Shown here one piece after another: positions 1-19,965 of a stretch of DNA of 64,000 nt. Source of the DNA: an uncultured Paracoccaceae bacterium (lineage in GTDB: Bacteria; Pseudomonadota; Alphaproteobacteria; Rhodobacterales; Rhodobacteraceae); NCBI GenBank assembly GCA_947487205.1, contig CANKVU010000006.1, positions 1-64,000 on the forward strand, read 5' to 3'. The notes beneath the pieces were generated by a model. It had not been told where the DNA came from. It searched no databases and saw only the letters and a list, made by a program, of their open reading frames with translations. Numbering within the stretch: position 1 is the stretch's first letter; each line of letters begins with the position of its first letter. A program made the translations under genes and the position numbers.

Positions 1-77
1 GAGATCAGACATGTCACCGCTCTGTTTTCGCGCGATGAATCATGCCCCTCCGCTGCAATCAATGGGTCCTGACCCTA
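1..77 (-). mobile_element. probable edge of an IS5-like insertion sequence (partial)
   Basis: On the minus strand an ATG at 10-12 opens a frame reading Met-Ser-Asp-Leu and runs off the window. A purine-rich GCGGTGAC precedes it. The sequence GGGTCAGGACCC at 64-75, just upstream, could be the terminal inverted repeat region. From memory, many IS5-family transposases of alphaproteobacteria begin with these four residues and have a similar leader, but only four codons are visible, so this is an inference. If right, the island around it has been hit by an IS or is bounded by one. Confidence 0.3.
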
Positions 78-308
78 CACCACGTTCAGGGACGTCACCC
101 CCATTCCGGCATCTGGATTATTCCGCCGGCGGAGTTCGTGGTGCAGAAGGGACTGGCAATGCACGCCGCGTAGCCTCAGAAATCAATCTGCGGACTCTCC
201 AAATGGCTGGAGCAGAATCGGATCTAAGATCACCGACAATCCGATCCAGGAGGACATCGTCGAAGACGATCTCCGCCGGATCGAGCCAATTGCGAGAGCT
301 GAAACCGA
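78..308. other. gene-poor stretch downstream of the nuclease-helicase gene
   Basis: This stretch is visibly less GC-rich than its surroundings. One short open frame (118-327, minus, 69 codons, ATG overlapping the end of the nuclease-helicase gene by 19 bases) is present. It has no convincing ribosome binding site and no recognisable motif, so I do not call it a gene. No terminator hairpin with a T-run is evident. Confidence 0.4.
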
Positions 309-3300
309 TCACTCGCCTGCTCTCCATCGCGGCAGTGCGCAGAGCGTGTTCACGAGACGTATCTGCTCGACCGTCACGCAGGGTGTCTCGCAGAGCCGTG
401 GCGCGGCGAAGACGAGGCTCAGTGCCTTGCCGCGGCTCACGGCGACGTTGAGCCTTTCCCGCGACAACAGGAAATCGAGGCCGCGCGCTGTCTCCTCGGC
501 CGAGGAGGCCGTCATGGAGACGAGAGCGACGGGGGCTTCCTGGCCCTGGAACCGATCCACGGTGCCAACACGGATGTCGGGAAGCGCATCGGCGAGGGCA
601 TTCACCTGCACGTTGTAGGGCGCGACGACGATGATGTCGGAGGTCCGGATTGGCCGTGTTCGTCCCTCGCGGTCCGTCCAGGTGCCGGCGAGGAGTCGGG
701 CGACCTGCGACCGGATCGCCTCGATTTCCTCCGGGCTCTCTTGGGCGCGGCCGTCGTGCTCCACCGGGACGAGCCAGGCGCCGCTCGACGGGAGACCCGC
801 GGCGGTGATCGCCTGCCGCGCGGTGGCCTCGTGGGCGCGGAGCCGGCCCTCGTAGAACTGCTCCGACACGTAGTCGCAGAGATCGGGATGCATTCGTCGC
901 GTGACGGGGAGGAAGATGCCGCGCTCCGGCGGGATCGTCGTCGCACCGCCCAGCATCCAGTCGAGGCAGGAGAGGTTCGCGGGGTCGGGATGCGCGCCCT
1001 GGACCACCTGGGGCAGCTGGTTCGGATCACCCACCAGCACGAGGTTGCGGGCCGCGTTCGACATGGCGACGAGATTGGCGAGGGACACCTGTCCGGCCTC
1101 GTCCACGAAGAGATAATCGAAGACGCCGGCCAGTTCCGGGCGCGAGAAGAGCCAAGCGGTGCCGCCGACCACGTCCGCGGCGGCAATCCCCGGGTCATCG
1201 TTGCCGCGCGCCTGGGCGATGCGGTCGTAGGGTGGCCGCAGCGGTGCGTCCTCGGCCTTGCCCTTCTGGGTGATCGAGAGGTCCTCGACAGTGACATCCT
1301 CATCGTCGCCCTCCAACGCGTCGATGCAGCCCATCAAAACGTTGGTGATCGCCGCATGGGAATTCGACGCGACGGCGATGCGCTTTCCCCGCCGTACGAG
1401 GTTCAGAATCGCGCGCGCGGTGACATAGGTCTTGCCGGTGCCCGGGGGGCCTTGCATCGCAAGGACGGTGTCGTCCATCGCCTCTGTCGCCGCGATGACC
1501 GCGTTCACTGGATCGTCGTCGTCCGCTACGGGGAGTGGCGCCTTCTGCCGGAAGCGCGGGGCGCGGCGGGCCAGAAGGTCGTCTGCGGCACGGTTGGTGC
1601 GGGGCCCGAGCTGGTCCTCCACCACGCTCATGATCGCCTCAGGGATCGGACGCGTGTTGAGAGCGAAGCTTGGCAGCAAATCGAGCCGGTCGGGAAGACG
1701 ATCCCCGGCGGAGGGGCCCATCTTCACGGTGACTTGCCGACTGGCTCGGTCCAACTCCAGCACCGAGAGATTGGCGATGCCGTCTGCGATCGCGATGCAA
1801 GCGTCGGATCCGGCCTTCAGCTTGGTCTCCTGCGCCGGGTAGCGATACGTCCGCTTGATCGATCTCTTCTCGGGTTCCTGCGCGGCGACGGCCGTGAGAC
1901 CGCCGAGGCTCTCCATGTCCTCGCAGAGTTCCTCGGAGGTCTTCGCGGCCGCGTCGAAGACCGCCCAGGCGGCGGGTTTGGCCTCGCGGGCGTGGAACTG
2001 GGCGAGATCGAAGAGGAGCTGGCCGCGTCCCTCAGGCAGGTCTGCGCCGATGAGGCGGGCGTGCAAGGCCTCCACCTCGGCGTCGTGCTCGTCATGCTGC
2101 TCGTTCTGGGCGGGGGCTATGGCAGGCCATGGCGCGTCGGGACGCTGGTCGACGAGCCAGTCGCGCAGATCTTCGGTCGAGACGCAGTCGAGGCGGTTGT
2201 AGGCCTCGATCTCGGTGAGGATCGCGTCGTCCTGGCTGTCACGCCAGGCCTCGTAGGCCACGACGGATCCGCCGGCGGTCTTGACCTCGCCGGTCCGCTC
2301 GAATCCGTAGAGCGCCTCCATGTCCTTGATGGAATAGGAGGGCTCGGAGGCGGCCACGCCGCCCCGGACGACGGCGAAGAGATCGCAGAAGCGCCGCTCG
2401 CGCAGCCAGCGGTCGAGCCGGGCCTCGCCGACACCGTGCCGGGTGCAGAGGCGGCGGAGCGCTGTGATTTCGTAGGGCGCGTAGTGGTAGATGTGGGCGG
2501 TCGGATGCGCCGTCAATCGCGCGTCGAACAGGTCGAAGAGCGCGACCAGGGCGTCCCGCTCCGCCGCGTGGTCATGTGCCCAGAGCGCGGTGAAGTTGTC
2601 TCCGTCCCAGACGCCGTGGAGATATTCGAGCCCCTCGACATCGCCCTCGGCGTAGAATGGATCTCCCTCGATGTCGTAGAAAAGATCGCCCGGGTCGGGC
2701 CGCGGCAGCAGATCGAATCCTTTCCCGGCGATGACCGGGCGCAGGACGTGATGCGGACCCTTCGCGGCGCGGTCGCTTTGCAGCCGCGCCTGCAGCCTAA
2801 GCCTCTCGAGGGTCGGGTCGGCGAGGCGCGGGATGCGGCCCTCGTGATGGGCAAGCTCTGCCATGGTGGAGAGACCTGACGCCTCGATCTTGCGGACCTG
2901 GCCTCGGGTGATTCCGGCAATGCGGACGAGGCTGTCCTCCGCCTCCCAGACGCCGGCGCAATGATCCCGCCAGCGGCAGAGGTCGCATTTGGCACAGGGC
3001 ACCGGCCGCGTGTCCCACGGCTCGGCCACGAACCGCTCCAAGCGGTCTCGGGCAGCTCGGGCATAGGCGACGTATTCTCCGAGGCGGAAGCTGGCGCGTG
3101 TTCCGTCGCCGAGGAGCACGTGGGCCCGTTCCGGCATCCGCCCCTGCTGCTCGGCCAGCAGGTCCGAGTAGAGGACCAGCTGGAGAAGGTGGCCCGGGGC
3201 GGGCTTGCGCTTCAGCTTCGTGTCCGCGACCTCGTAGGAGAAGGCGCCGAGATCGGAGGGCAGGTCGACCCGTTCGAGGAAGTCGGACCAGCCTCCCCAG

Positions 3301-3617
3301 GCGCCGCCGTCAAGCGCCCCCTGGAAGATCGTGCCGGGCCCCGAGGCGAGGGCATGCCGCGTGGCGTCGGCATCCGAGGTGAGATCGCCGCTGCGAGGAA
3401 TCTCGACGACGTCGCTCGTTTGCTTCAGGCGGGCGAGATGTTCGGCTTCGTGCGCGTCACCCTGCCGCTGGAGCAGCGCGGCGTCGGCGCTGTCGTCGAC
3501 CGGGTCCGGCCCTTCGCCACGGAGGCGCGCGAGATCGAGGGCGGTCGCGTGCGCACAGGCCATGAAAGTCATCAGGTCCGACGCGGAGAGGCGGACCTGG
3601 TCGCCGTCGAACCTCAT
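309..3617 (-). CDS. RecB-like nuclease / RNase H-like exonuclease / SF1 helicase (TM0106 family)
   Basis: A predicted multi-domain DNA-processing enzyme of 1102 residues. The N-terminal part resembles RecB-type nucleases, with a D-x-K-like motif (ADTKLKRK) near 131-138 and a cysteine cluster CAKCDLCRWRDHC near 198-210. A second module with FYDIEGDP near 303-310 and a downstream YNRLDCVSTEDL fits the RNase H-like (DEDD) exonuclease fold of this family. The C-terminal third is an SF1 DNA2/NAM7-type helicase: Walker A GPPGTGKT near residue 720, Walker B-like FVDEAGQ, VGDPNQLPQ, DRFQGQE and SRERLNVAVSRGK. The gene is last in a minus-strand operon; its ATG overlaps the stop of the SMC-like ATPase gene as ATGA, implying translational coupling and joint action. 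Domain assignment is firm; the biological role is inferred. Confidence 0.85.
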   Translation of the reverse strand: MRFDGDQVRLSASDLMTFMACAHATALDLARLRGEGPDPVDDSADAALLQRQGDAHEAEHLARLKQTSDVVEIPRSGDLTSDADATRHALASGPGTIFQGALDGGAWGGWSDFLERVDLPSDLGAFSYEVADTKLKRKPAPGHLLQLVLYSDLLAEQQGRMPERAHVLLGDGTRASFRLGEYVAYARAARDRLERFVAEPWDTRPVPCAKCDLCRWRDHCAGVWEAEDSLVRIAGITRGQVRKIEASGLSTMAELAHHEGRIPRLADPTLERLRLQARLQSDRAAKGPHHVLRPVIAGKGFDLLPRPDPGDLFYDIEGDPFYAEGDVEGLEYLHGVWDGDNFTALWAHDHAAERDALVALFDLFDARLTAHPTAHIYHYAPYEITALRRLCTRHGVGEARLDRWLRERRFCDLFAVVRGGVAASEPSYSIKDMEALYGFERTGEVKTAGGSVVAYEAWRDSQDDAILTEIEAYNRLDCVSTEDLRDWLVDQRPDAPWPAIAPAQNEQHDEHDAEVEALHARLIGADLPEGRGQLLFDLAQFHAREAKPAAWAVFDAAAKTSEELCEDMESLGGLTAVAAQEPEKRSIKRTYRYPAQETKLKAGSDACIAIADGIANLSVLELDRASRQVTVKMGPSAGDRLPDRLDLLPSFALNTRPIPEAIMSVVEDQLGPRTNRAADDLLARRAPRFRQKAPLPVADDDDPVNAVIAATEAMDDTVLAMQGPPGTGKTYVTARAILNLVRRGKRIAVASNSHAAITNVLMGCIDALEGDDEDVTVEDLSITQKGKAEDAPLRPPYDRIAQARGNDDPGIAAADVVGGTAWLFSRPELAGVFDYLFVDEAGQVSLANLVAMSNAARNLVLVGDPNQLPQVVQGAHPDPANLSCLDWMLGGATTIPPERGIFLPVTRRMHPDLCDYVSEQFYEGRLRAHEATARQAITAAGLPSSGAWLVPVEHDGRAQESPEEIEAIRSQVARLLAGTWTDREGRTRPIRTSDIIVVAPYNVQVNALADALPDIRVGTVDRFQGQEAPVALVSMTASSAEETARGLDFLLSRERLNVAVSRGKALSLVFAAPRLCETPCVTVEQIRLVNTLCALPRWRAGE

Positions 3618-6232
3618 GCCGCGTCCTCCGCGGCGGTCCCGGCGGTCTCGAACTGCAGGGTGCGGCCGCCCAGGGCGCGGAAGGCCCTCTGGCGGCAGGA
3701 GAGGACGATGAGCTGAAGGTCGCCCGCCTGCCGATGCAGCGCGTCGAACATCCGCTCGATCCGGTCGTCGTCGGTGAAGACCAGAGCATCGTCGAGGATC
3801 ACGGGCGCGTGCCGCCCGGCCTTCGCCAGCATCCGGGCGAAGGCGAGACGGACCAGCAGCGCCACCTGCTCCTGCGTGCCGCCCGATAGGATTTCCACCG
3901 GCTCGGCCATGCCGTTGCGGACGAGGGCGCTCGGCAGGATCGTCTCGGTTTCCCAGGTCAGCTCCGCGTCGGGCCAGAGGAGCGACAGGAGGGGACGGAG
4001 CTCGGCGGCGACGGGGGCGAAGTAGCGGTCCCGCGCCTCCGCCTTCGCCGCATCGAGCGCCTGTTCCAGCCTCTGCAGCACGGCGACATCGTGTTCGATG
4101 CGCGCAAGCTCGGCTTCGGCGGCGGCAAGATCCTGCTCCGCGACGGACAGCCGTTCCTCTACCGCTTCGCCCGCGCCGCGGGAGATCCGCTCGTCGAGGC
4201 GGGCGATCTCCGGACGCAGGCGGCCGATCGCCTCGCGCGCTTCGTGGTCCACCGAGCGGGCCCGGAGAAGCGCGGCCTCCGCAGCCCCGAGATCCGGGGC
4301 ATCGCGCGTGATTTCCTCCAGCCGCAGGCTCGCAGCTTCGAGTGCCGCGATGGATGCCGCTACCGCCTCGTCCAGGGTTCCGGGCTCCTCCGGTCCGGCT
4401 CCCGCCATCGCATCGTTGGCGCGGGTCAGTCGCTGCTCTGCCGCCGTGGCGGTGGTTTCCGCGCGGGTCGCCTCGAGACGTGCATCACCATGGCGTTCGG
4501 TCGCCGCGGCGTGCGCCGACTGCGCGGCAATCCGGGCGGCTTCCGCATCGGCCAGTGCGCGATCCGCCTCGGCCGGATCGGGGCCCTCAGCGACCTCCTC
4601 CACCTTCGGGATCGCGGCCAGCGCCGCCCGAAGCGGGTCGAGGCCCTCGGGGGCGAGGCTCCCGAAGACGGCGCGAGCCTCGCCCAGGCGCCGGGTCGCC
4701 TCGGCGCGGGTCGCAGCCGCGCGGCGGGCCTCGTCGGGGTCGGCCATGCCGAGTAGCGCGAGCGCATCTCTCAGCGCCGTCTGCGCCGCGGCGACATCCG
4801 CGCTGTCCTGTCCGTCGTCAGAAGGTTCGACGTCGATGGCGCCAATTCCCTCGATCTCGAGCCGCGCGAAACGGGGAACAGGAACGGCCTCACCATCCTC
4901 GAGCGCCCGGCCTGCGAGGCGGACCATCCCCGCTCGGCCATCCGCGTAGCGCACGGTCACCTGCGTGGCGGTCGCATCCCGGGTCGCTATGGCTGTGGCG
5001 TACCGGGCGGCCAGAGCCTCGAGCTTTCGGAGGGCCCGCTCGTCCGGCCCCTGCGCGGCCGCAGCCCCCGCTTCTTCCATTTCTTTTCGGGCGGCCTCGG
5101 CCCGCGCAATCCGGGCTTCGAGATCGGTTCGGCGGGCAGCGCCTTCGCTGGCGCGGCGTCGCCGCTCGGCTGCATCCCGCGCCGTAATGGCGGTCTTCTC
5201 CCGGTTTTCCGCCTCCGCCAAGGCGGTGCGCGCGGTTTTCAGCTCGGCCGCCGTCGCGTCTCGGGCGGCGATTGCCTTCGCAGTATCCTCTCGAGCCGCG
5301 ATGGCGGCCTCCGTCGCCGCGCCGTGCTCGGTGAGAAGCGCGCGCAGGGCGTCGCGCCGCTCCCGTGCCCGGTCCGCCGCCAGGCGGGCAGCGTCCACCT
5401 TCCCCCGCTCGGCCTCGACCTGCTCCGCGTGGCGGGTGGCGGCCTCATGGGCAGCGGTCGCCGTCGCGAGACGCTCCCGACGTTCCTCCGCCGCCTCGGG
5501 AGCTTCCAGCTCGGCGAGAGCGCGGCGGTGCCGGCGCCGCGCCTCGAGGGCGTCGTGGAGGTCCGCCGCCGTGGCGGCGAGCCGGTCGCGCTCCGCCGTC
5601 AGCGTCTCCACCCGATCCTGCGCGACCTTCCAGGGGCCGTTCGCCTTTATCCGTCCTGATGGAGTGAGATACTGGGCCAGCTCTGCACGGCAGCGGTCGA
5701 GGGCGGCGTCCATCCGCCGGCCCCCGGTCATCGCTTCCACCTCGTGGCCCACCGAGGACATCAGGTCGCGCCGCGCCTCGGCCGCCGCGCGGTCCTCCTT
5801 CTGGCTGCCGCTGGACAGGCCGGTCAGGCCCTGGCGCACCCAGAGGAGACCCGAGGGTCCATCGCCGCTCGTCCCGAGAAGGCGGGCAATGCGATCCTCC
5901 GCCGAGTCGGCCTGCGCGAGAAGGTGACCGTCCCGCTCGACCCGAGCATCGGGCTTCGACAGCCAGCGCTTGGTGATCTTCAGCAGGCCTTCCGGCGTCT
6001 CGATCTCGACCCGGATCTCGGGCGCCCCTCCGGCATGGGGCTGGAGCGCCTTGACCTCCTTGTCCCGAGACCCGTGGGGCTTGAAGAACAGCGCCTGGAG
6101 CGCGTCGAAGAGCGTGGACTTGCCGATTTCGTTTGGCTGGCAGAGGACGTTTAGCCCGTCGCAGATGCCGTCGACGCGCGTTTCACGGGTGAAGCGGCGG
6201 ACATTCACGAGGGTGATGCTGCGGATCTTCAT
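3614..6232 (-). CDS. SMC/Rad50-like AAA ATPase, YhaN type
   Basis: An 872-residue ABC-type ATPase with a long coiled coil, of the kind that pairs with an Mre11/SbcD-type nuclease on DNA ends. The N-terminal Walker A is QPNEIGKST (about 32-40). The C-terminal half-site has the ABC signature LSGGT followed by Walker B VILDDAL. The middle is Ala/Arg/Glu-rich coiled coil. I see no CxxC zinc hook, which favours YhaN-type over true SbcC/Rad50. The frame is open well upstream, but the start at 6232 is preferred because it overlaps the stop of the metallophosphoesterase gene as ATGA and begins with the conserved MKIRSITLVNVRRF. Its own stop overlaps the next gene in the same way, so three genes form one coupled unit. 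Confidence 0.85.
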   Translation of the reverse strand: MKIRSITLVNVRRFTRETRVDGICDGLNVLCQPNEIGKSTLFDALQALFFKPHGSRDKEVKALQPHAGGAPEIRVEIETPEGLLKITKRWLSKPDARVERDGHLLAQADSAEDRIARLLGTSGDGPSGLLWVRQGLTGLSSGSQKEDRAAAEARRDLMSSVGHEVEAMTGGRRMDAALDRCRAELAQYLTPSGRIKANGPWKVAQDRVETLTAERDRLAATAADLHDALEARRRHRRALAELEAPEAAEERRERLATATAAHEAATRHAEQVEAERGKVDAARLAADRARERRDALRALLTEHGAATEAAIAAREDTAKAIAARDATAAELKTARTALAEAENREKTAITARDAAERRRRASEGAARRTDLEARIARAEAARKEMEEAGAAAAQGPDERALRKLEALAARYATAIATRDATATQVTVRYADGRAGMVRLAGRALEDGEAVPVPRFARLEIEGIGAIDVEPSDDGQDSADVAAAQTALRDALALLGMADPDEARRAAATRAEATRRLGEARAVFGSLAPEGLDPLRAALAAIPKVEEVAEGPDPAEADRALADAEAARIAAQSAHAAATERHGDARLEATRAETTATAAEQRLTRANDAMAGAGPEEPGTLDEAVAASIAALEAASLRLEEITRDAPDLGAAEAALLRARSVDHEAREAIGRLRPEIARLDERISRGAGEAVEERLSVAEQDLAAAEAELARIEHDVAVLQRLEQALDAAKAEARDRYFAPVAAELRPLLSLLWPDAELTWETETILPSALVRNGMAEPVEILSGGTQEQVALLVRLAFARMLAKAGRHAPVILDDALVFTDDDRIERMFDALHRQAGDLQLIVLSCRQRAFRALGGRTLQFETAGTAAEDAA

Positions 6233-7359
6233 TGCGCCGCCTCCTTTGCATAGGCGTAGAGCCGGACCAGCGCATCGCCGGCGATCGACCGGTCCGCGGC
6301 GCTCCGGCTCTCGTCCTCTGCTTCTTCCAGCAGCCTCTCCGCGGCCAGGCGCAGGGCCCCCGCCCGGTCGATCTCGTCGAGATCCGCCCGCTCGTAATGG
6401 GTGCCGAGGTGCCGGGTCAGGAGCTCGAAATGGGCGAAGTCCGGACCGACCCGACCGGCCGCGCGGGCAAGATCCGCCTGTTCCGGCAGCCCGGTCCAAC
6501 CGGTGACGTTGACGTGCAGGAGCGTGTCGCGCCGACCCGTCGCGGGCAGCAGCACCTCCAGCGCCGCTGCGGTATCCTGCCGGGGCGAAAGCGGCAACTC
6601 GTCCTCGGCCCAGAGAAAGGCGCCAGTCTCGATCTCGCGGACCTGTGGTGCAGCCCCCGGCCCGGGCACGGTCACCGCGAGGCAGACGCCGCGGCGGCCA
6701 TGCTTGAACCGGTCCTGCTCTGGCGTGCCGCAATACTGCACGCGCGGGCTCACCTCCATGCGACCATGCCAGTCGCCCAGGCCGAGGTAGTCGAGCTGTG
6801 CGGTGCGGTCCCTATCAGGCGGGATGCTGTCGCCGCTCTCGGTAAAATCCGTGATGCCGCCATGGGCGAGTCCGATCCGGAGACTTCCCTCGTCGCTCGG
6901 CATCTCCGCGAGCGGTGCGCTCGGATCGCGGCCGGCGGAACGCCATTCAACGGGGCAGGGCAGGAGGGTGGCGCCGGGCTCAAGCTCCACCGGCGCCGCT
7001 TCCGTCAGGGCGCGGACATTGCCGGGGCCGTCACGCACCGCGTCCCAGAGCGGCTCTCCCTCGCGCAGGTTGTCATGGTTGCCGGGCAGCAGCCACCAGG
7101 TCAGGTCCGCGGCCTCGCCCATGGCCGCCAGTGCTTGCTGCAGGACCGTAGGGGAGGGCGTGGGGGTGTCGAAAGTATCACCGGCCAGGAGGACGTGGCC
7201 CGCCCCGTGGTCCCGCGCAGCAGTGGCGAGGCGGGCAATGGCGCCATGGCGGGCCTCCATGAGCCGGCCGCGGATGTTGCCGTCGGCGGGCTGCGGGATC
7301 GAACCGAAATGCCGGCCGAGATGCAGGTCGGAGGAATGGATGAAACGGAACTCGGTCAT
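6229..7359 (-). CDS. SbcD/Mre11-like metallophosphoesterase (YhaO type)
   Basis: A predicted Mn-dependent DNA nuclease of 376 residues. All phosphodiesterase motifs of the Mre11/SbcD family are visible: HSSDLHLG (Asp11, His13), AGDTFD, GNHDN, LAHGG and GDWHG. The partner ATPase is the next gene, overlapping by ATGA. The ATG at 7359 is chosen because AAAGG lies about eight bases upstream; a TTG one codon earlier is less likely. The gene begins 144 bases after the end of a WYL-domain regulator on the same strand, so it is the first gene of the nuclease operon. Substrate specificity cannot be read from sequence. Confidence 0.85.
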   Translation of the reverse strand: MTEFRFIHSSDLHLGRHFGSIPQPADGNIRGRLMEARHGAIARLATAARDHGAGHVLLAGDTFDTPTPSPTVLQQALAAMGEAADLTWWLLPGNHDNLREGEPLWDAVRDGPGNVRALTEAAPVELEPGATLLPCPVEWRSAGRDPSAPLAEMPSDEGSLRIGLAHGGITDFTESGDSIPPDRDRTAQLDYLGLGDWHGRMEVSPRVQYCGTPEQDRFKHGRRGVCLAVTVPGPGAAPQVREIETGAFLWAEDELPLSPRQDTAAALEVLLPATGRRDTLLHVNVTGWTGLPEQADLARAAGRVGPDFAHFELLTRHLGTHYERADLDEIDRAGALRLAAERLLEEAEDESRSAADRSIAGDALVRLYAYAKEAAQ

Positions 7360-7503
7360 CAAAGCAGCCTTTCGAAATACCCGGCGCGGCGTACGCGCCC
7401 TCGAACGCTTCGCAACCTGCAGGGTCGGGACGACAGATCCTGTCGTACCTCGCTTCCGTCACCGGGAAAGTGGGTGGAATATCGTGAACCAATCGTGAAT
7501 CGT

Positions 7504-8553
7504 TCAGGGCAGCACACCATTGTTTCTCTTCGGATCCGCCAGCAACGTGCTCAGCTCCCTCGGTGCGACCACCTCGACCGAATCGCCCCAGCTCAGCAGA
7601 TGCCAAGCCATCTCCAGCCAGCCCGATGCGGTGAAGCGCACCTCGAGACGCCCGTCGGGCAGCCGTTCCGTGATCTGGGTCGGATGGAACCGCCATTCCG
7701 CGGCTCTCTCCGCCGCATCCGCCGAGAACCGCCAGACGACCTCGCCGAACTCGGCCTCCGCCTGGTAGGATCCGAAGGCGCGGGCCGCATGGTCGGCGAG
7801 GCTGAAACCGGGATCCCGCGCAAACACCTCCCGAACTACCTGCGCATCAGTAATGCGGTCCAACCGAAAGTGACGGAGCGCGTGGTCCTTCGCCGGCTGC
7901 CGGGCGACAAGGTAGCGGCGGGATCCGATCAGGATGCCGTAGGGCTCGACCACGCGGCGCTCCTGGCCATAGGAGAAGGCGAGGCGGAACGGCCCCCGCA
8001 ACGCTTCGGCGAGGATGTCATTGAGGTCCGGATCGGCCATGACCGCCGGACCGGGACGGGTCGCCACTCCGTGCGCCTCCAGCAGCGCGTCGGCGTCCGC
8101 CTCGGCCGCGCGGGCCCGGCTGGCGGGCAGGGCCGCCATCAACCGGTCGCGCAGGCCCCCGAGCGCCCGGGCCTGCCGCTCGCCGCCCTGTGCGCCGAGC
8201 GCCCCGATCGCGGCCTCGAGGGCCTCGAGCTCGTCCGCACCATCGAGTCTCAGGCGCGCGATGGGCGTTTCCTTCAGACGCCATCGCCGGCGGCGATCAT
8301 CCCCATCCCGAACCTCGACTGCGTGCGGCAACGCCTCGCCGAGGGCGCGGACCATCCTCTGGGCCGTGCGTTCGGACACGCCGAACTCGGCGGAGATCTC
8401 CTCGAGCGTCACGCCGGCATGACGTGAGGCGGCGAGATCGGCCAGCCGCAGGAGGACGATGGCGTTTCCGTAGGAGATGATTGCACCGGATACGAGAACT
8501 CGTCTGCAGGAAACACCGCCCGGTGGTTCCTGTAAATCATGCGATATCGTCAC
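7504..8553 (-). CDS. WYL-domain transcriptional regulator with HTH
   Basis: A regulator of about 349 residues. The N-terminal winged HTH is visible as VTLEEISAEFGVSERTAQRM, and the C-terminal WYL-type ligand-binding region around FSYGQERRVVEPYGIL. WYL proteins often control defence or DNA-damage operons by sensing nucleic acid or a nucleotide ligand (known for the family). It lies directly upstream of, and in the same orientation as, the SbcD-ATPase-nuclease/helicase operon, which suggests it controls it. The start is uncertain: there is no ATG before the HTH, and I chose the GTG at 8551-8553. A TTG at 8640 would add 29 residues without similarity to the family. Confidence 0.75.
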   Translation of the reverse strand: MTISHDLQEPPGGVSCRRVLVSGAIISYGNAIVLLRLADLAASRHAGVTLEEISAEFGVSERTAQRMVRALGEALPHAVEVRDGDDRRRRWRLKETPIARLRLDGADELEALEAAIGALGAQGGERQARALGGLRDRLMAALPASRARAAEADADALLEAHGVATRPGPAVMADPDLNDILAEALRGPFRLAFSYGQERRVVEPYGILIGSRRYLVARQPAKDHALRHFRLDRITDAQVVREVFARDPGFSLADHAARAFGSYQAEAEFGEVVWRFSADAAERAAEWRFHPTQITERLPDGRLEVRFTASGWLEMAWHLLSWGDSVEVVAPRELSTLLADPKRNNGVLP

Positions 8554-8734
8554 TGGTACGGGTGAACCCGATCCGGCGGTCTGGAGCAGGAACGGCGGTG
8601 GGAGAGCGTCTTGATCGGCAGGTTTGCCACCACCCCGCAAGAAGGTGCCTGGCGCGTGTCCCGAGGGGTGGGTGGAGCGATCCTGACCATGACGCTTCCA
8701 GAGGTGGTGAACCCTCGCGCTTCAGGCCGTCGCC

Positions 8735-9406
8735 TCAGCGTTGCGGGGCCTTCGAGTCGGTCGTGACAATTCCCGAGAGTGCGGCCCGAATCTCGCTCAT
8801 CACGGAGAGGTCGCGAAGTTCGGTAAAAAGGCGGTCCAGCGCACCTGTCTCCCGCCCGAGACGCTCGATCTCGCTTCGCGCCAGGCGATGCTCTTCCCGC
8901 AAATCGGCGAGCTCCGATCTCGCCGCATCCCGTTCACGCTCAAGTTCCGAGACCGCCTCGTCCTTCCGCGCGATCTCGGCTTCCAGCTCGGCGATCCGCC
9001 AGTTGGCATTTCTCTTGTTCGCGCGCAGGTCCTCGCAGTCCCGCTCCGCGGCGGTCCTGCAGACATCGTTCTGCCGCGCGACGAGCAACAGCAGGTCCTG
9101 CCTCACGGATGCGATCACCTCGTCCACCACCGGAGTGGTCGTTTCCGGCAGGGCCTTCAGAAGGCGCCGGCGTTCTTCCTCGGCGGTTTCCTCGTGGATC
9201 TGCGCCACCAGCGCGGCCAGGCTGTCTTCGCGGATCCCCTGGCTGATGCCGTGATCCGCGCAGAGCCGCGCCTTCACCATCTTGGCGGTGATCTGCTCGA
9301 TGGTGCTCCCTTCGGCCACGAGGGCGCCGATCACGGCGCGCACCTGGCTGGGCGCATAGGTTTTCGGGCGGCCGCCCGCGGACCTGGTTTCGGCGGTCTG
9401 TACCAT
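8735..9406 (-). CDS. coiled-coil protein, possibly KfrA-like DNA-binding
   Basis: A protein of 223 residues. The N-terminal third carries a predicted DNA-binding-like segment (GRPKTYAPSQVRAVIGALV), and the C-terminal half is almost uninterrupted heptad-like coiled coil rich in Glu, Arg and Leu. This architecture recalls KfrA-type plasmid proteins that bind DNA and form filaments, but I cannot show homology, so the name is tentative. The ATG at 9406 is preferred over earlier in-frame starts because AAAGG sits about twelve bases upstream and the sequence before it looks non-coding. It follows the helicase-like gene on the same strand, 240 bases downstream, and precedes the WYL regulator. Confidence 0.5.
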   Translation of the reverse strand: MVQTAETRSAGGRPKTYAPSQVRAVIGALVAEGSTIEQITAKMVKARLCADHGISQGIREDSLAALVAQIHEETAEEERRRLLKALPETTTPVVDEVIASVRQDLLLLVARQNDVCRTAAERDCEDLRANKRNANWRIAELEAEIARKDEAVSELERERDAARSELADLREEHRLARSEIERLGRETGALDRLFTELRDLSVMSEIRAALSGIVTTDSKAPQR

Positions 9407-9646
9407 GGGATGTTTGCCTTTCGGTATGCCAAACCGGATTTGCCAAACCCGGCCCGGCGTTGCTGATAGCGAGGAGATCGGTTCGTTTCCGGCCCGAGGA
9501 AAACTCCGGAGCAGACCAGGATCAGGTTTTTGCCTTGGATGTCTCGAAGGCCCGCAAGGCATTTGCAGACTTGCCAACGGGTAAGTTCAGCTGCATCGCG
9601 CTGAAGGCCGGAGCGATCACGATAACCGGACGGATTCCATACGGTA

Positions 9647-11809
9647 TCAGGCCAATTGCGCCGCGAATTCCGGCCAGAGGGTCCCGGCCATCATGAGCGG
9701 GTCGCCATGATCCTCGAGGATGATCGCAGGCACGACTTTGCCCCCTGTGGGTCTCCGCAGCAGGAGAGGCGTGATCGGCCAGTCGTTGGCTGCCGCGACA
9801 CGCTGGCAGAGCGATACCATCTGCGAGGTCGAACGGCCCCGGCGGAAACGCTCGGCACCGGTCTCGAAGTCGCGCGGAAGGTCCGCGGCGAGACCTGCGG
9901 CCGACAGCCGGGTCCCGCGCACCGGTCGTCCCAGCGTAGCGCGAAGGGCCTTTTCTATCCGGACATATCCCTGCCAGTCCGGTTCCCCTTCGAGACCCCG
10001 CTCGAGGGCGGCCAATGTCGTCAGGCGTGTGACCGGGAAATCCGGCAGCGGCAGGCTGCTCAGGATAACGACGCGTTTTTCGCGGTTGGGGGACAGGAGG
10101 CGGAGCCGGGCGATGGCCTGGAGCGTGCCGCATTCCCGCGTCTGAGCCAGGATCGTCTGGACCCGCGGGTCCGGGTGGGCCCGGACATCGGTGTCCCGGA
10201 CCGCGCCGTCGGCCATGATGATCCGTGACCCGGTCGCCGGCAGAGGGCCCGAGGCATGCGCCGTGATCGGCTGGGTGTCCTGCGCGAAAACCGCGCGCGC
10301 CGAAGCCTCGACGTCGGCAATACCCGGTTGGAGACGCCCAATGACAACGATCGCCGCATAGTCCTCGAAATCGTTCACGCCCTGCATCCGCGGGCCGAAC
10401 CAGCGCGGCTGCGCACCGAGGAGCGGTTGCCTGAGGGAGCCCTCAGCGCTGGCATCCAGCAGCGTGCCGGCCTCCCGGTGCAGGGCCGCGAGAACGGATT
10501 TCGTCGCCACGACGAGGACTCCCCCGCCCGCGGCTTTTTCAATTTCTCGTTCGAGGATCGTCCGTATCGCAGTCCGCCTCTGCGCGCCCTTGTCCGGGTG
10601 GAGCAGCCAGCTGTTGGAGAGCGTCAGGTCGGAAACCTGAACGATGTCGGCGATCGGCGGCGACTGGATCGTGATGAACTTGGCACCGGGAGCGATGCGC
10701 TCGGTGATGTCGGGATCGGCATCCGCGTCGAGAAGAAGCAGCGGCGCCTCGCGACCGACGACATCGAATCCGGAGGACTCGATCACCTGGTGAGATCCGC
10801 CCTCCGTCGTTACCTCGACAAGGCTCAATCCGACGCAGTGTCCAGTCTCCCTTTCGGACAGGCGTTCGAACAGGCGCTGCCGCCGCTTCGAGGCGATGAA
10901 GGACCTCCTGTCGAAGGTCTCGACGCGAAACGCGACCGCTTCGGTGGTCTGCCATGGTCCGATCTCGAGGCCGGTCCGGGATTGGCGTTCCGCCTTCGCG
11001 AGGCGCTTCAACTGCTCGGTATCGATGCGGGCGTTCCGGACATGGTCGTGGAGCGGGAGGTTGCGCTGCAGGCCGTCGATGAGGGCAGCCCTGGCGCGGG
11101 AGAGCGCGCCGAGGAGGTTCTCCGGGAAGGTCGTCGGGGGCGCGCGCATGAGATCGTCGACGGCGAGGTGTGACCTGCGGGTCAGGGCCGGCCAGACCTT
11201 CTCGTCGACCACGCGGAGCACGACCGGGTAGTCGCGATCGACCGGAGGATCGACGGTCAGATAGGCGTGGGACAGGAAGACGACATGGGGCCCTGCAAGG
11301 TCCTTCTGCTGCAGGTAGGCACATCCGGAGGCGCACGGAGATTGGACGAAATTCCCGTCCGGGTCCTGACCCCGGCAGAGCGCCTGGGTGACCGAGGGAA
11401 CGAACCCTGCGATCGCTTCCGCGATCTCGGCGCGCTCGCACATCTTGGTCTTGCTGTCGCCCGGGCGCGCGGCGTCGCGTCCCCGGATCACCCGGGAGGG
11501 AAGTTCCGGCGCAATGGTCCGGAACTCGCCGCAGGCCCGTTCCGCGAGGTCGAGCGTTGGCAGGTGGATCAGAACGTGTCCGCGCGCCAGCAGGGCCTCT
11601 CCGTGACGCGCGAGCGCGCGCAGCGTCGTCGCGGTCTTCCCGAGCCCGGCTGTGACCTTCAGCGCAAGGGCGGCGCCGGGTGTTGCTGTCGCCCGCGCCG
11701 CCGCTCTCACGAAAAGATCGATCTCCTGGTCGAGCTGCTCCCGTGCCTCGGATGGCCTCGTCCATCGCGGGACCCGGACGGCCGTTTCGAGTTCTGGTTC
11801 GTGCTTCAT
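9647..11809 (-). CDS. helicase-like P-loop ATPase with DinG/XPD-like cysteine cluster
   Basis: A 720-residue protein that I do not recognise as a named family. Walker A is TAGLGKTATT near residue 48, followed by a segment rich in conserved hydrophobics (HVLIHLPTLDLAERA). Next come four cysteines spread as MC, ALC and SPCASGC, then HVVFLSHAYL and VVDEK. That order (Walker A, Cys cluster, hydrophobic-SHA, DE box) matches the layout of DinG/XPD-type iron-sulfur helicases, though the DE box is DEKV rather than DEAH. The start at 11809 is chosen because GGAGG lies six bases upstream; an ATG two codons earlier would touch that site. It is transcribed divergently from the double-HTH gene, with a large inverted repeat between them. 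A role in island replication or mobilisation is possible but not shown. Confidence 0.55.
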   Translation of the reverse strand: MKHEPELETAVRVPRWTRPSEAREQLDQEIDLFVRAAARATATPGAALALKVTAGLGKTATTLRALARHGEALLARGHVLIHLPTLDLAERACGEFRTIAPELPSRVIRGRDAARPGDSKTKMCERAEIAEAIAGFVPSVTQALCRGQDPDGNFVQSPCASGCAYLQQKDLAGPHVVFLSHAYLTVDPPVDRDYPVVLRVVDEKVWPALTRRSHLAVDDLMRAPPTTFPENLLGALSRARAALIDGLQRNLPLHDHVRNARIDTEQLKRLAKAERQSRTGLEIGPWQTTEAVAFRVETFDRRSFIASKRRQRLFERLSERETGHCVGLSLVEVTTEGGSHQVIESSGFDVVGREAPLLLLDADADPDITERIAPGAKFITIQSPPIADIVQVSDLTLSNSWLLHPDKGAQRRTAIRTILEREIEKAAGGGVLVVATKSVLAALHREAGTLLDASAEGSLRQPLLGAQPRWFGPRMQGVNDFEDYAAIVVIGRLQPGIADVEASARAVFAQDTQPITAHASGPLPATGSRIIMADGAVRDTDVRAHPDPRVQTILAQTRECGTLQAIARLRLLSPNREKRVVILSSLPLPDFPVTRLTTLAALERGLEGEPDWQGYVRIEKALRATLGRPVRGTRLSAAGLAADLPRDFETGAERFRRGRSTSQMVSLCQRVAAANDWPITPLLLRRPTGGKVVPAIILEDHGDPLMMAGTLWPEFAAQLA

Positions 11810-11896
11810 CCGCATCCTCCGTTTCGGAGGACCTGGGCGCAGGCGCTGTCGCGCAGAAACCCGTGGGATCACGACAGCGCGAGGGATGGCGCGTCG

Positions 11897-11949
11897 GCAA
11901 AGGTGCCGCGCCTCAATTGATAGTCCCAATTGCGCCGCGACACCTTTGC
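11897..11949. repeat. 23-base imperfect inverted repeat with 7-base spacer
   Basis: The left arm (11897-11919) begins GCAAAGGTG and ends CAATTG. The right arm (11927-11949) is its reverse complement with three mismatches. The spacer is ATAGTCC. It sits between the divergent helicase-like gene and the double-HTH gene. Two long arms around a 7-base spacer fit either an operator for the HTH protein or a tyrosine-recombinase core site. Confidence 0.7.
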
Positions 11950-12023
11950 TCTTGCCCACAGGCGTTTCAGGCGCGGTCGTCTGGCGACTAATTCCCCCTC
12001 GAGACCAGCGTGAGGAGGAAAAA

Positions 12024-12398
12024 ATGCTGTCTGTGGAACATGTTGCCAATCATTACGGGCTTCGCCCCGACACCGTCCGGCGCAAGATACGCGCGGGGCA
12101 CATCAACGCCATCCGCATGCGCCGCAGCTACCGGCTGGACTGGAGCGATGTCTGGGCCTGCGAGGAAGGCCCGATGCCGAAGGGCGCACGGATCAGGCGC
12201 TACCAGGACCGCCTGCTGAAGAAGAAGGAGATCGCGCGCGCTCTCGGCGTCAGCGCGAGAACCGTCGAGCGCTGGATCGCGGGCGGATTGCCGACCCGGG
12301 CCGTTTTCGGCGCCGTTCGCTGCAATCCGCACGATGTCGCGGACTGGATGCGGCAGGCCATGGATGTCGACCTGCCCGACGGGTGGTGGCAGGCATGA
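12024..12398 (+). CDS. small double helix-turn-helix (excisionase-like) protein
   Basis: A 124-residue protein with two DNA-binding units of the excisionase/MerR type. The first, near residues 1-45, reads SVEHVANHYGLRPDTVRRKI followed by a basic wing. The second, near 66-115, reads KKKEIARALGVSARTVERWI. A strong AGGAGGAA lies just upstream of the ATG. The protein precedes two tyrosine-recombinase genes on the same strand, so a directionality factor or regulator for them is a natural guess. A 23-base inverted repeat about 75-125 bases upstream is a candidate binding site. Two HTH units in one chain would suit binding to two half-sites as a monomer. Confidence 0.7.
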   Translation: MLSVEHVANHYGLRPDTVRRKIRAGHINAIRMRRSYRLDWSDVWACEEGPMPKGARIRRYQDRLLKKKEIARALGVSARTVERWIAGGLPTRAVFGAVRCNPHDVADWMRQAMDVDLPDGWWQA

Positions 12399-12663
12399 TC
12401 GGCTTCCGCACAAGAGCGACAGGCGTCCTCGCGACGGGAGCGGCGTGCCGGTGCCCGTCGCACAATCGCCCCCGAACATTTATCGGCGTTGTGTTCGCGT
12501 CCCAGCGTGCGAAACCCGGAAAAATCGCGCCACGCTGTGCGAACCGCGCCCCCGAGCGCGATCTCCTGACTGGCCGCCGGGACGCGGCCTGATCGGAGCC
12601 GGTCCTCGTCGTCTTTCCGCGGGAAGACGCCGGGTCCCGGCTCCCGAACCAGGAGAAGAAAAG
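12399..12663 (+). other. leader of the recombinase pair
   Basis: This 265-base stretch has no convincing gene. It contains a weak imperfect palindrome around 12460-12495 (CACAATCGCC versus GGCGTTGTG) and two related GTGCGAA-type words near 12506 and 12536. I see no clear promoter. Confidence 0.3.
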
Positions 12664-14595
12664 ATGACCTCTCAGACCCCGATCTCACCGAGTCAGACCG
12701 CAACCTGCGGCGACGTGCTCAGCTGGGCGAAATCCACGGGCGAGGCGCGCGACGCGATCTACGAACTGGAGAAGGTGCCGGCTCGCATGGACATGGCGGA
12801 CGAGGACATCGGGTTGATCCCGGCCGACCTCTTGCATTTCCACCACGTGATCGCCGCGACGCCCTATGGCATGGTCTCCAGGGCGCGCGACCTGGAGAAG
12901 GCCCGCCGGCGCGGCAATTCGCGTCTCAACAAGCTGCTGGAGCGATTTCACGCGGCGCATGGGTCCGCCAAGCCGGTGGATGTGGCGGCGAGCTACGATC
13001 CCCTCATCGCGGCGGTCAAGGAACGCGAAGGATTCACCGAAGAGGGCGCGGCGTTCCCGGCCTCGCGGCACAAGTCGCTCTTCGCCCTGCGCGCGCGGTG
13101 CCACGTCGCGCTCGAAGCCCTTAACCAGGCCGAGGTCGATCGTGTGTTCCGGGAGGCCACGTCCGAGAAGCGCCGCGCGCTGCGCCGCGCGATTCATCTT
13201 CTGAACGAGCTGAAGCGGGGGCACAATCGCTGGCCGGACATCACGCCGCTGCTACCGGCACCAGTGCTCTCGGTACCGAAGACGTCCGACCGGGCCGAGC
13301 GCCTTCCGTGGACCTCGCTGCCGGACGCCTTTCGCCACGGGGCGGAAGATGTCTTTCGCGAGATCCTGCTGACCCCTGCGGATCTTTCTGCCTGGGTCAC
13401 CCAGCAGATGGCCGCCGGGGTCGGCTCGGAAGAGATCAACAGGGTCGTCAGCGAGAGGGTCAAAGACCGCGGTCGCCGTCCCAAGAACTCGACGACGGCG
13501 CTGGCCGGCTACAAGGGCGCCGTCACCTGGCTGGTGCGTCGGCACAAGCAGCGGACGGGATCGCTGGAGGCCTTGCCGACACTTCGGGACATGATGTCCC
13601 GGGACCTGATCACCAGCGCCATCGACGATCAGATCGCCCGCTCCGACGCATCGCCCCACCTGAAGAACGCGTCCAAGAGCCAGACCCTGGCGAACCGGCT
13701 GACCAACCTCAGGACGATCGCGCGACACGGGCTGCATGATCCCGAGATCGTCGCCCATTTTGACGTCCTCAAGGTGGCCTACCACGACTACATCGTCACG
13801 CCGAAACAGATGACCGAGGAGGCCGACCGGACCTGCCGGATGCTCCAGCAGCGACCGGATCTCGCGGCGCGGTTCGTCAACGCTCCGGGCACACTGGCGC
13901 GTGACGCGGAGGCGGCGATCGCGGAGGCCGAGGCCGCCGGGGATCGGGACGGGGTGGATGCCGGTCTGCGGCTCTACGCTGCCGCCACCCTGCAGGCGAT
14001 CCAGGCCTCGCGCCCGCTCCGGACCTCGAACCTGATTGCCCTGCGATGCCGCGGCGCGCAGGAGATCGCCGGCAACATCACGTGGATCCGGAAGGGCGAG
14101 CATGCCGAACTTCGCTTCCTGAAGGGCGAGATCAAGAACGACCGGGTCGTCACGATGCATGTTCTGGGGGAGGACGCGAAGATCCTCCGGCTGTGGCTGG
14201 AGGTGTACCGGCAGAAATTCCTCGCGCTGCGGGACCTGCCGGACAGCCCCTATGTCTTCCCCGGCACCGCGCGACCCCGCTTCGTCAAGGACGCGATCAC
14301 GCTGCCGGAAGGCTGCATGGCACCTTCGACCATGGCCGAGGTCTGGGCGCTTGGCGACGAGCGGATCGGTCTCGGGATTTCACCCCATGTCTGCCGGCAC
14401 GCCGTGGCGACGCTCATCCTCGCCGTGGAACCCGGCAACTTCGACAAGGCGGCGGCGGTGCTCGGAGATACCGAGGAGACCGTGCGCCGGCATTACGGGC
14501 GCGACAGCGGGGAACAGGCGGCTCAGGCGGTGCGCGCGGCGCTGCTCTCCCGCCATCCCGACATCTTCAAGCGCATGAAGAGGAGACTTGCATGA
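12664..14595 (+). CDS. tyrosine recombinase, first of an overlapping pair
   Basis: A 643-residue site-specific recombinase. The catalytic domain fills the last 200 or so residues: box I around PLRTSNLIALRC supplies the first Arg, box II is SPHVCRHAVATL (H-x-x-R), and the nucleophile region is GDTEETVRRHYG with Tyr. The His/Trp normally before the Tyr is replaced by Asp (LGDT instead of LGH), so activity is not certain. The long N-terminal half would hold the core-binding domain plus extra sequence. The ATG at 12664 has AGGAGAAGA upstream; the open frame extends further 5' but has no RBS there. The stop overlaps the next recombinase gene as ATGA, so the two are probably made together, as in elements that encode paired recombinases. 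Confidence 0.75.
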   Translation: MTSQTPISPSQTATCGDVLSWAKSTGEARDAIYELEKVPARMDMADEDIGLIPADLLHFHHVIAATPYGMVSRARDLEKARRRGNSRLNKLLERFHAAHGSAKPVDVAASYDPLIAAVKEREGFTEEGAAFPASRHKSLFALRARCHVALEALNQAEVDRVFREATSEKRRALRRAIHLLNELKRGHNRWPDITPLLPAPVLSVPKTSDRAERLPWTSLPDAFRHGAEDVFREILLTPADLSAWVTQQMAAGVGSEEINRVVSERVKDRGRRPKNSTTALAGYKGAVTWLVRRHKQRTGSLEALPTLRDMMSRDLITSAIDDQIARSDASPHLKNASKSQTLANRLTNLRTIARHGLHDPEIVAHFDVLKVAYHDYIVTPKQMTEEADRTCRMLQQRPDLAARFVNAPGTLARDAEAAIAEAEAAGDRDGVDAGLRLYAAATLQAIQASRPLRTSNLIALRCRGAQEIAGNITWIRKGEHAELRFLKGEIKNDRVVTMHVLGEDAKILRLWLEVYRQKFLALRDLPDSPYVFPGTARPRFVKDAITLPEGCMAPSTMAEVWALGDERIGLGISPHVCRHAVATLILAVEPGNFDKAAAVLGDTEETVRRHYGRDSGEQAAQAVRAALLSRHPDIFKRMKRRLA

Positions 14596-17451: not shown

Positions 17452-19770
17452 CTACGCCACGACCCTAAGCTCACGCTCCCTGGCCCGTGCCTCCGTGACG
17501 ACGGAAGGGTCGTCGAACGGCCGCCGGATCATGGAGATGTCGACCACGACGGACTTCATGCGCGCGGCGAGCTTCTCGATCCCGAGATTCTGTCCGTAGG
17601 AGCGGTCGCCCTCGTCGGTATAGGTGTGCCCCATGAGACGGCAGCGGATGGCATCCGACTTGTCGTCCCCCAGGAGGTCGTGATGGAACGTCGTGCGAAG
17701 CGCATGGAAGTCGCGCCCGGGCCAGTAGCACGCGTTGGTCCGTCAGTAATAGCCGAAGGCCTTGCTGTAATTCGCGGAGAAGGTGCCCATCTGCTTGCCC
17801 CTGTTGAGGAAGGGGAAGAGCCGGAGATGCCCCTGTTTCTTGCGCAGTTCGACCAGTTTCAAGAGACCGAGCTCGATCAGTTGCGGGTGGATCGGCAGTG
17901 TCCGCGCGCTGCTGAGGGTCTTCACGCCGTTGACGATCGTGTGGCGGATCCGGAGATATTGAATTCCCTTGTCCACGCCGAAATCCTCCGGTCCCAGCTG
18001 GAGGATCTCTTCCATGCGCATCCCCTGGTGCCGCGCGATGAGCGGCGCCCAGAACAAGAGGTCTCCTACATCCTCGAGCGGCTCCTGGAAAATGCGTGAT
18101 CCCCAGAGATCGTAGATCCGATCGTCCCAGGCCTGCCGCTTGCTTTCGCCTTCGGTGCTCTTGAGCTCCTTCTCGTCGCTGTTGCTCCAGGTGCACACGC
18201 TGAACGGGTTCTGGTCGATCAGCTGCATGTCCATCAGCATCTCGCCGACGGCCCGCAGCACGCGGCCGTGCTTGATAAAGGTCGTGACCGTGATGCGGGC
18301 CTCCTGGCGCTGGAGGCGCATCCTGTCGATCTTCTCGGATCCTGCGCCGCGGGCTCGTTCGGCCTCGATGTCTCTCTCAAGCTGGGCCTGCCTGGCATCG
18401 GCCTTCTCGATCAGTTCCATGAGATTGTATCTGCCGCGATCCTTCTCGGACTTGCTGTGGTTCGCCGGGACCCGAGAGAGGCGCTCCAGGGCATCGTTCA
18501 CCTCGTCGACATGGATCTCGTCGACAGGTTCGTCACCGAGCGCGGAGGGCCAGAAGTCGAGTGCGAGGCGGCGCTTGCTCCTGTGGTCCTCGCAGAGACG
18601 CTCCTCGACCGTGGCGTTCTTCATGTTCACTGGGATCGCCTTGCGTTTCTGGGCTTTGCTGAACGGCGCCCGGTATCCCAGGCTCAGGATCTCGAAATGG
18701 AGTTCGATCGCCTCGACGAGCGTGATGCCCCGCTGTTTCTCGAGGGCGGCGCGGGACTCCTCCGACAGAAGCTTCCGGTCGACCAGGATACGGGGCGGGC
18801 GGGCCGCGATGCGCGCCTTTTGCCAAGCTTCATCGTCGTAGCCCTCGGGGCGGTCCAGCCCGGCCGGGACGATCACCTGGGTCAGGGAGGTGGACCCGGC
18901 AAGCGAGGACCCGCGGGCGGGCCGTTCCTCTGCCGACGTCGCGTCTTCCTGACGGTCCGGAGCGGGAGATGGCGCGGATGCGGGGGGTGTTTTCGGAGCC
19001 GCCCCATCCGTATTCGCGGCAGTGGAGGCAGGGGCGGACGCAGGAGGAACCGACCCGGCCTCGCAGGTCGCGAACGAGGCCGGTGCCACCGTGATGCCCG
19101 TCGAAGCGGTCCGGTGCGGCACCGCGACCGGGGCGGCGGTGCTGACCGCGCTGCGGAAGAATGCGGTCGGCTGGTCGTAGACGCCCTGCTGCCGGCGCGC
19201 CCGTTCCTGGCTGACATCGAGCAGGACCTTGGTCGCCTCGTAGGCGAGGGCCGTCCAGTCCGCGTCTGCTTCGTCGAGCTCGATGCCGAGGTGCATGGCG
19301 ACATGGCGGAGCGGGCGCAGCGCGACCTCCCGGTCCCCGAGCCAGAGGGCCTGGCGCAGGGTGGCCTGGAGCGCTTCTTCGCGCCGCAGATCCAGGGCGG
19401 CGGCCTCGGCGCTGCGGGGACCGGCGACGGCGCGCGCCTGCTCGAAGGCCGCGATCTCGAACCGAGCGAGGCCTTCCAGCAGCTGAACCTGTATTTCGGG
19501 CACAATCGCCATCATCGTCTCCGCATCCGCGGCGAAGACCAGGTCGCTCATCTCGGTGAGGCGGCGGGCCAGGATCTTCGCGTCGCGGGGGAGATGGGTG
19601 CGGAGCGAAAAGCACAAAAACGACTTTCTTTACGGAGAGCGGTCTTCTTTGTCCCCGGGCTCGGGGCCCGCGTCGCCCCGGTCCCGTAGGGACCGGGGCA
19701 GGCGTCTGCGCCAGGCGTAGCCGGCCCGGCGGATCTCGAGATGGGGCGGCAAGCTCCGATTCCGGGGCAT
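17452..19770 (-). pseudogene. tRNA-targeting tyrosine integrase, broken by two in-frame stops
   Basis: Read from the ATG at 19770 (AGGAGG ten bases upstream), this frame encodes about 772 codons of a DUF6538-type phage integrase. The N-terminus has the arm motif PPHLEIRRAGYAWRRRLP. A TAA at 19630-19632 then interrupts it just before FLCFSLRTHLPRDAK, which is again typical of the family. After the core domain and box I (ARHQGMRMEEILQL), a TGA at 17743-17745 interrupts it after FGYY. The same frame continues with box II FHALRTTFHHDLL and the tyrosine box GHTYTDEGDRSYGQ, ending at 17452. Both stops are single-codon changes from plausible sense codons, and the downstream frame is intact, so the damage looks recent. 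A product starting at an internal site and stopping at 17743 would lack the catalytic His, Arg and Tyr. Sequencing error could explain one stop but hardly both. Confidence 0.8.
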
Positions 19771-19890: not shown

Positions 19891-19965
19891 TGGCTCCGGC
19901 GGTAGGGATCGAACCTACGACCAATTGATTAACAGTCAACTGCTCTACCGCTGAGCTACGCCGGA
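19891..19965 (-). tRNA. tRNA-Asn (GTT), island attachment gene
   Basis: A complete cloverleaf on the minus strand with anticodon GTT in the loop CTGTTAA, T-arm GGTTCGATCC and an encoded CCA (19891-19893). The 3' end points at the broken integrase 120 bases away, which is the standard arrangement when an integrative element has inserted into the 3' end of a tRNA gene. The gene remains intact because the element restores the tail. I found no second copy of the tRNA 3' end in bases 1-19890, so the other attachment site is outside the window. Confidence 0.95.

Follow-up and report, generated by a model that had tools for sequence, protein, structure and literature searches.

A modular gene unit with a DriD-type WYL regulator and predicted DNA-end-processing enzymes in an uncultured Paracoccaceae bacterium

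A four-gene unit at a contig end

We analyzed a stretch of 64,000 nucleotides (G000:C6:1-64000; hereafter, the window) that begins at base 1 of its contig. Four genes lie near this end, all on the minus strand and where an earlier note, made from the sequence alone, had placed them: a DriD-type WYL regulator (7504..8553, with a GTG start in an open frame that begins at 8640), an Mre11/SbcD-like nuclease (6229..7359), a Rad50/YhaN-like SMC ATPase without a zinc hook (3614..6232), and a TM0106-family protein (309..3617) that combines a RecB-like nuclease with a Cys cluster, a DEDD RNase H-like domain, and a UPF1/DNA2-like SF1 helicase. The gap between the WYL and Mre11-like genes is 144 bases long and holds a predicted palindromic operator (7430..7446), while the Mre11-like/SMC-like and SMC-like/helicase junctions are each a 4-base ATGA overlap. 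The genes and coordinates of that earlier description were confirmed, and the catalytic motifs looked for are intact. The contig stops 308 bases beyond the last gene (1..308), and the DNA further on is not joined in the assembly; therefore, an operon partner may be missing.

The same note placed the unit on an island next to an integrase. Two tyrosine-recombinase-like open reading frames (ORFs) do sit between the operon and a tRNA-Asn gene, one on the plus strand (12334..14595; phrog_1, E = 1.7e-6) and one on the minus strand (17743..19617; phrog_1, E = 2.1e-8). The second adjoins the called tRNA-Asn gene (19891..19965, minus strand), a possible integration site. An island as such was not borne out: the G+C profile gave no clear shift that would mark one, a 26-base stretch of the tRNA-Asn 3' end has no second exact copy in the genome, and the far boundary of any island is cut off by the contig end. 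Two ORFs of 280 and 800 amino acids, located between the operon and the first recombinase ORF (8735-12049), match no Pfam family.

Three predicted DNA-processing enzymes

The Mre11-like protein matches Metallophos (PF00149, 7.8e-8) and, under the cut-off of that model, SbcD (TIGR00619, 1.9e-12). All five phosphoesterase motifs (I-V) are present, and the predicted model (pLDDT 84.4) has E. coli SbcD as its best PDB match (Foldseek E = 1.1e-14, TM of about 0.5, rmsd 13); both motifs and fold are thus of the Mre11 type. The SMC-like protein encoded by the next gene scores 36.2 bits against SMC_N (PF02463, 5.7e-9; cut-off of 40) and resembles Rad50 heads (E = 2.7e-4). It has Walker A, signature, and Walker B motifs; no zinc hook CxxC was found in it (3614-6232), as the earlier note had stated, and phage records gave no match to it. 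Among known systems, the pair is closest to the YhaO-YhaN subgroup of SbcCD/Mre11-Rad50.

The third enzyme, of 1,102 residues, belongs to the TM0106 family (TIGR03491, 6.1e-70; 236.5 bits against a cut-off of 97.45) and also matches RNase_H_2 (PF13482, 2.9e-25), AAA_12, and AAA_11. Its motifs comprise one N-terminal Cys plus a Cys cluster, a RecB-like YEVADTK, DEDD, and the helicase motifs; these residues vary little among 15 homologs of the TM0106 type. For this enzyme, the nearest solved structures by sequence are SMUBP-2, UPF1, SEN1, and DNA2, with each match lying in the helicase part. The two best Foldseek matches of its predicted model are Dna2 (1.6e-21, TM-scores near 0.22), which are only supportive because the model, built from eight rows, is poor (pLDDT 66.3, pTM 0.36). 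Phage records yielded three weak helicase matches only. A partial literature search found no earlier description of this gene unit and mentions of TM0106 only in two corrosion papers; for TIGR03491 and PF13482 it found none, in a search that required two terms together and that single-term papers would escape.

A DriD-type regulator

The WYL protein carries WYL (PF13280, 9.7e-9) and WCX (PF25583, 2.1e-14) domains and matches PDB entry 8tp8 with an E value of 3.8e-44 over residues 52 to 373 of the open frame. We take 8tp8 to be DriD, which fits its label "DeoR-family." Judged by its sequence, the window protein is a full-length DriD homolog with the order wHTH, three-helix bundle, WYL, and WCX. 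According to the available text of PMC12340889, DriD is a Caulobacter WYL-domain regulator of a noncanonical DNA damage response; it recognizes ATACGAC-N7-GTCGTAT, with single-stranded DNA as its switch.

We compared 43 rows at the positions that dock RNA polymerase. Position 18 is small (A, S, or G) in 38 of them, with S in the window protein, and position 20, an Ala in DriD, is R or H in 35, with H in the window protein; owing to position 20, small residues at both sites are not the pattern of the 43 rows. Pro125 of DriD is kept in 2 rows and Arg121 in 14, while Arg122 and Glu128 are each kept in 39, with A and D, respectively, in the window protein. The window regulator thus appears not to be a full copy of DriD, since the docking residues differ, above all at position 20.

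The start codon annotated for the WYL gene is uncertain. An imperfect palindrome with 12-base arms and a 2-base gap (8507-8532) lies in the N-terminal extension of the annotated frame, just before the wHTH part, and may be a second operator.

A box before the first gene of the unit

The pattern ACGAC-N7-GTCGT occurs once in the window, at 7430-7446, against 0.05 expected copies (5 of 100 shuffles had one anywhere). The full DriD consensus fits this site only with three mismatches, for which 0.89 matches are expected, so this fit is by itself not above chance. An identical palindrome occupies the same place in a related locus (L101). To score the box elsewhere, we used a 22-column model and left each locus out when it was scored; the resulting counts carry three limits: the model was trained on sites of the very loci being scored, some plasmids nearly duplicate one another, and real sites are also part of the background. 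At p < 0.01, 28 of the 43 WYL-containing loci have the box ahead of the helicase gene, namely, 28 of the 34 in which WYL and helicase genes are divergent (absent in the other 6) and none of the remaining 9. The first, exact pattern had been present in 15 of those 34.

Of the 15 WYL-containing loci scored ahead of the Mre11-like gene, 11 have the box there at p < 0.01, and two further loci reach p values of 0.011 and 0.014. In the other two (L111 and L131), the helicase gene comes first, and the box scores only before it. Where the Mre11-like gene leads, the box is therefore found in 11 of 13 loci at p < 0.01 and in all 13 at p < 0.05. This placement suggests that the box usually goes with the leading gene, be it the helicase or the Mre11-like gene. 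A locus fetched later (L163) also has the box, but with a core identical to that of L106 and L113.

Where WYL is lacking, the box was found at 6 of 29 loci scored ahead of the Mre11-like gene and at 1 of 8 scored ahead of the helicase gene. Six Mre11/SMC-like pairs (L024, L025, L038, L042, L044, and L047) have it 71 to 116 bases before the gene, with no WYL gene found nearby; thus, the WYL protein may act in trans. The direction of control could go either way: many helicase-first loci have a TTGACA-like -35 element inside the box, which makes repression as possible as activation. As for the signal, a DriD-like regulator and a matching operator before nuclease genes point to DNA damage or single-stranded DNA.

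Distribution and partners of the genes

We surveyed 394 genomes of the family for the TM0106-type gene (E <= 1e-60) and the Mre11-like gene (E <= 1e-20). Counting the window's genome, the former is present in 38 and the latter in 70, a patchy distribution rather than that of core genes. Both are present in 13 genomes (Fisher p = 0.012) and are neighbors in 7 of these, the window's included. About 0.1 such cases would be expected, given a 0.7% chance per genome of falling within 15 kb and with adjacency read by hand from two tables. The predicted co-occurrence elsewhere is thus above chance.

A fixed four-gene set was not supported. We counted genes within 9 kb at 38 TM0106-type loci from the 37 other genomes (two partial loci share one genome, and contig ends cut several loci), labeling neighbors with custom profiles built on annotated plasmid genes. 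WYL and HEPN-like genes are each found at 26 loci, McrB and McrC at 10 each, Mre11-like genes at 7, SMC-like genes at 6, and giant genes at 5, so that the helicase gene has McrB beside it in 10 of 38 loci and the Mre11-like gene in 7. Three loci (L023, L027, and L101) have all four genes of the window unit and, after them, a HEPN-like gene, McrB, and McrC; here, the HEPN label reflects similarity to annotated plasmid genes, with no Pfam hit. In L092 and L093, giants of 1,405 to 2,103 amino acids with Sacsin/HATPase-type domains, one of them with a NO VEIN C-terminal domain, come after the TM0106-type gene.

HEPN proteins are often toxin RNases. Their frequency near the helicase gene would suit an abortive system that destroys host DNA or RNA upon infection. 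We consider this very unlikely for the window, since a search of its genome, run without a positive control, found no relative of the L023 HEPN protein, and end-processing enzymes would need DNA ends rather than intact chromosomes.

TM0106-type genes are also carried on plasmids. In a sample of 15 of the 68 matching plasmid records, WYL accompanies the gene at 13 loci, HEPN-like genes at 6, Mre11-like, SMC-like, and McrB genes at 5 each, and McrC at 4. By the wording of the records, a restriction, DNA methylase, CBASS, or McrC gene is present in the stretch seen at seven loci (L094, L097, L120, L122, L123, L126, and L127), in support of the defence role proposed earlier. One locus (L119) has metabolic surroundings. 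In another (L124), the WYL/TM0106-type pair adjoins a long SMC-like protein with CxxC and further genes, presumably Dnd-like, judging by product names. Two contigs from viral collections (L163 and L164) hold TM0106-type genes with WYL/HEPN-like or McrBC neighbors.

Conjugation genes near several of the plasmid loci (L094, L122, L126, L123, and L093), as well as the two recombinase ORFs near the window operon, might indicate that the unit serves its carrier element by excluding rival plasmids or elements or by processing the element's own DNA. This seems unlikely: other plasmid loci among the 15, such as L119 and L125, have no conjugation genes in the stretch seen, and the changing partners look like restriction genes, not transfer genes.

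The Mre11/SMC-like pair has a wider distribution of its own. A search with the Mre11-like protein gave 40 genome_contigs loci, whose fetched DNA contains an SMC-like gene in 39, WYL in 7, and a TM0106-type gene in 4; the pair thus stands without the helicase gene in 36. Of three plasmids with the pair alone, two have metabolic neighbors (L095 and L096) and one has AbiEii and a type I restriction gene (L129), which leaves the contrast with the plasmid TM0106-type loci suggestive only.

That the pair is widespread without the helicase gene, and has the box at 6 of the 29 loci that lack a local WYL gene, suits DNA repair. The unit could then be a DNA-damage-inducible chromosomal repair operon: a DriD-like protein would detect single-stranded DNA where breaks occur and switch on resection enzymes of the Mre11-Rad50 and Dna2 types. 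We regard this main rival reading as possible, if somewhat unlikely. DriD itself acts in a damage response (PMC12340889, available text), and the pair alone is the commoner form among the 40 fetched loci. Yet both genes are patchy within the family; plasmids and contigs of the viral collection carry the TM0106-type gene, whose neighbors include McrBC, HEPN-like, and giant HATPase genes; and a congener carries a broken copy of the pair with stop codons (G009:C5:73626-76240).

Reshuffling of the components

We constructed a tree of 52 concatenated Mre11/SMC-like pairs, in which the four-gene loci scatter. After removal of three distant rows, a second tree of 49 rows joins the window's pair to that of L022, a locus lacking WYL and TM0106-type genes (two-row set, SH-aLRT of 100); none of the genes around L022 cluster with genes of the window. 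Likewise, the pair of L023 is joined to L025, the other pair that its genome carries (two-row set, SH-aLRT of 100). At least seven changes in the presence of the helicase gene are needed on the pair tree. A single clade for the pairs of six collinear operons was rejected (approximately unbiased test, p = 8e-66), in a test that used one model and operons picked for gene order after the first tree had been seen. The TM0106-type proteins of the collinear operons do group.

Identities to the window also differ by component: 60% (WYL), 67% (helicase), 53% (Mre11-like), and 44% (SMC-like) for L100 and 48%, 74%, 74%, and 61% for L027, in the same order. Together with the scatter on the pair tree, this indicates that parts were reshuffled or lost repeatedly. 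The whole operon may have been inherited and then lost many times, or a resident pair may have been captured repeatedly. A fixed four-gene system is rejected, since the components occur apart and the pairs of the six collinear operons do not form one clade.

A proposed role in the processing of DNA ends

The unit is real and modular, without being a fixed system, as its composition, intact motifs, recurrent linkage, DriD-type regulator, and DriD-like box show. The reading we favor, at about even chances, is that of a DNA-end-processing module that responds to DNA damage or invasion and is used mainly in defence. Single-stranded DNA from broken, replicating, or invading DNA would bind the WYL protein, and expression of the nuclease genes would change through the box. 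The Mre11-like nuclease and the SMC-like ATPase would then open or clip DNA ends, from which the TM0106-type protein, with its Dna2-like build and DEDD exonuclease domain, would unwind and degrade.

The main use of this module would be to destroy foreign DNA, given that the TM0106-type gene trades partners with restriction modules and occurs on plasmids and on contigs of the viral collection. Defence seems likelier than repair, judging by these partners and by the plasmids on which TM0106-type relatives lie. A further, bolder version, which we hold only tentatively and think rather unlikely, is a self-amplifying restriction platform. In this version, the DriD-like sensor would read single-stranded DNA made from the invader by the unit's own Mre11-Rad50-like and Dna2-like enzymes, and the WYL/TM0106-type core with its box would be a plug-in hub that repeatedly took up the SMC-nuclease pair, McrBC, or Sacsin-type giants.

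If the favored reading is correct, a DNA-damage-type sensor is tied to DNA destruction within one small operon, showing how a bacterium could sense an invader through the single-stranded DNA exposed. Mre11, Rad50, and Dna2 form the eukaryotic resection set, and here a single bacterial cluster brings together parts resembling all three. Through the operator, the signal and the direction of control can both be tested directly.

Comparison with known systems

In PADLOC-DB 2.0.0, partial matches only were found and no single named system matches the whole set at full length, in line with the earlier failure to recognize one. The helicase part matches MkoA (6.8e-47) and the regulator matches CRISPR-associated WYL models (up to 1e-26); the SMC-like protein matches LmuB and other ATPases over short stretches, and the Mre11-like protein has no match in that database. 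The likeness to Mokosh lies in MkoA, whose match covers the helicase part of the window protein, with the best stretch at residues 907 to 1066. Lamassu couples an SMC-like ATPase to a nuclease, as does the window unit, but the LmuB matches are weak and short (best, 6.8e-9 at residues 1 to 50) and the partners differ. McrBC type IV restriction is a frequent neighbor of the TM0106-type gene (10 of 38 loci). In contrast, no McrC was found in the window's genome with PF10117, a model that matches the McrC piece of L023 (5.2e-30) but gave a hit in just 1 of 14 control genomes, a set without E. coli.

The enzymes also resemble known end-processing machines. As in SbcCD/Mre11-Rad50, the genes for a nuclease with motifs I-V and an SMC ATPase adjoin and overlap; unlike in those complexes, the SMC-like protein has no zinc hook, and the pair is linked to a WYL regulator and a Dna2-like protein. 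By its motifs, the latter may share with Dna2 a RecB-type nuclease with a Cys cluster joined to a UPF1-like SF1 helicase in one chain, although sequence similarity to DNA2 is confined to the helicase part, and the window protein has an added DEDD RNase H-like domain and belongs to the TM0106 family. Finally, the regulator shares with DriD the domain order over its whole length, the wHTH residues Arg37 (kept in 41 of 43 rows) and Arg41 (43 of 43), and the operator core GAC-N7-GTC. It differs from DriD at several RNA polymerase docking positions and, as far as the available text on DriD goes, in standing before nuclease genes rather than before didA, bapE, or CCNA_03891/CCNA_01149.
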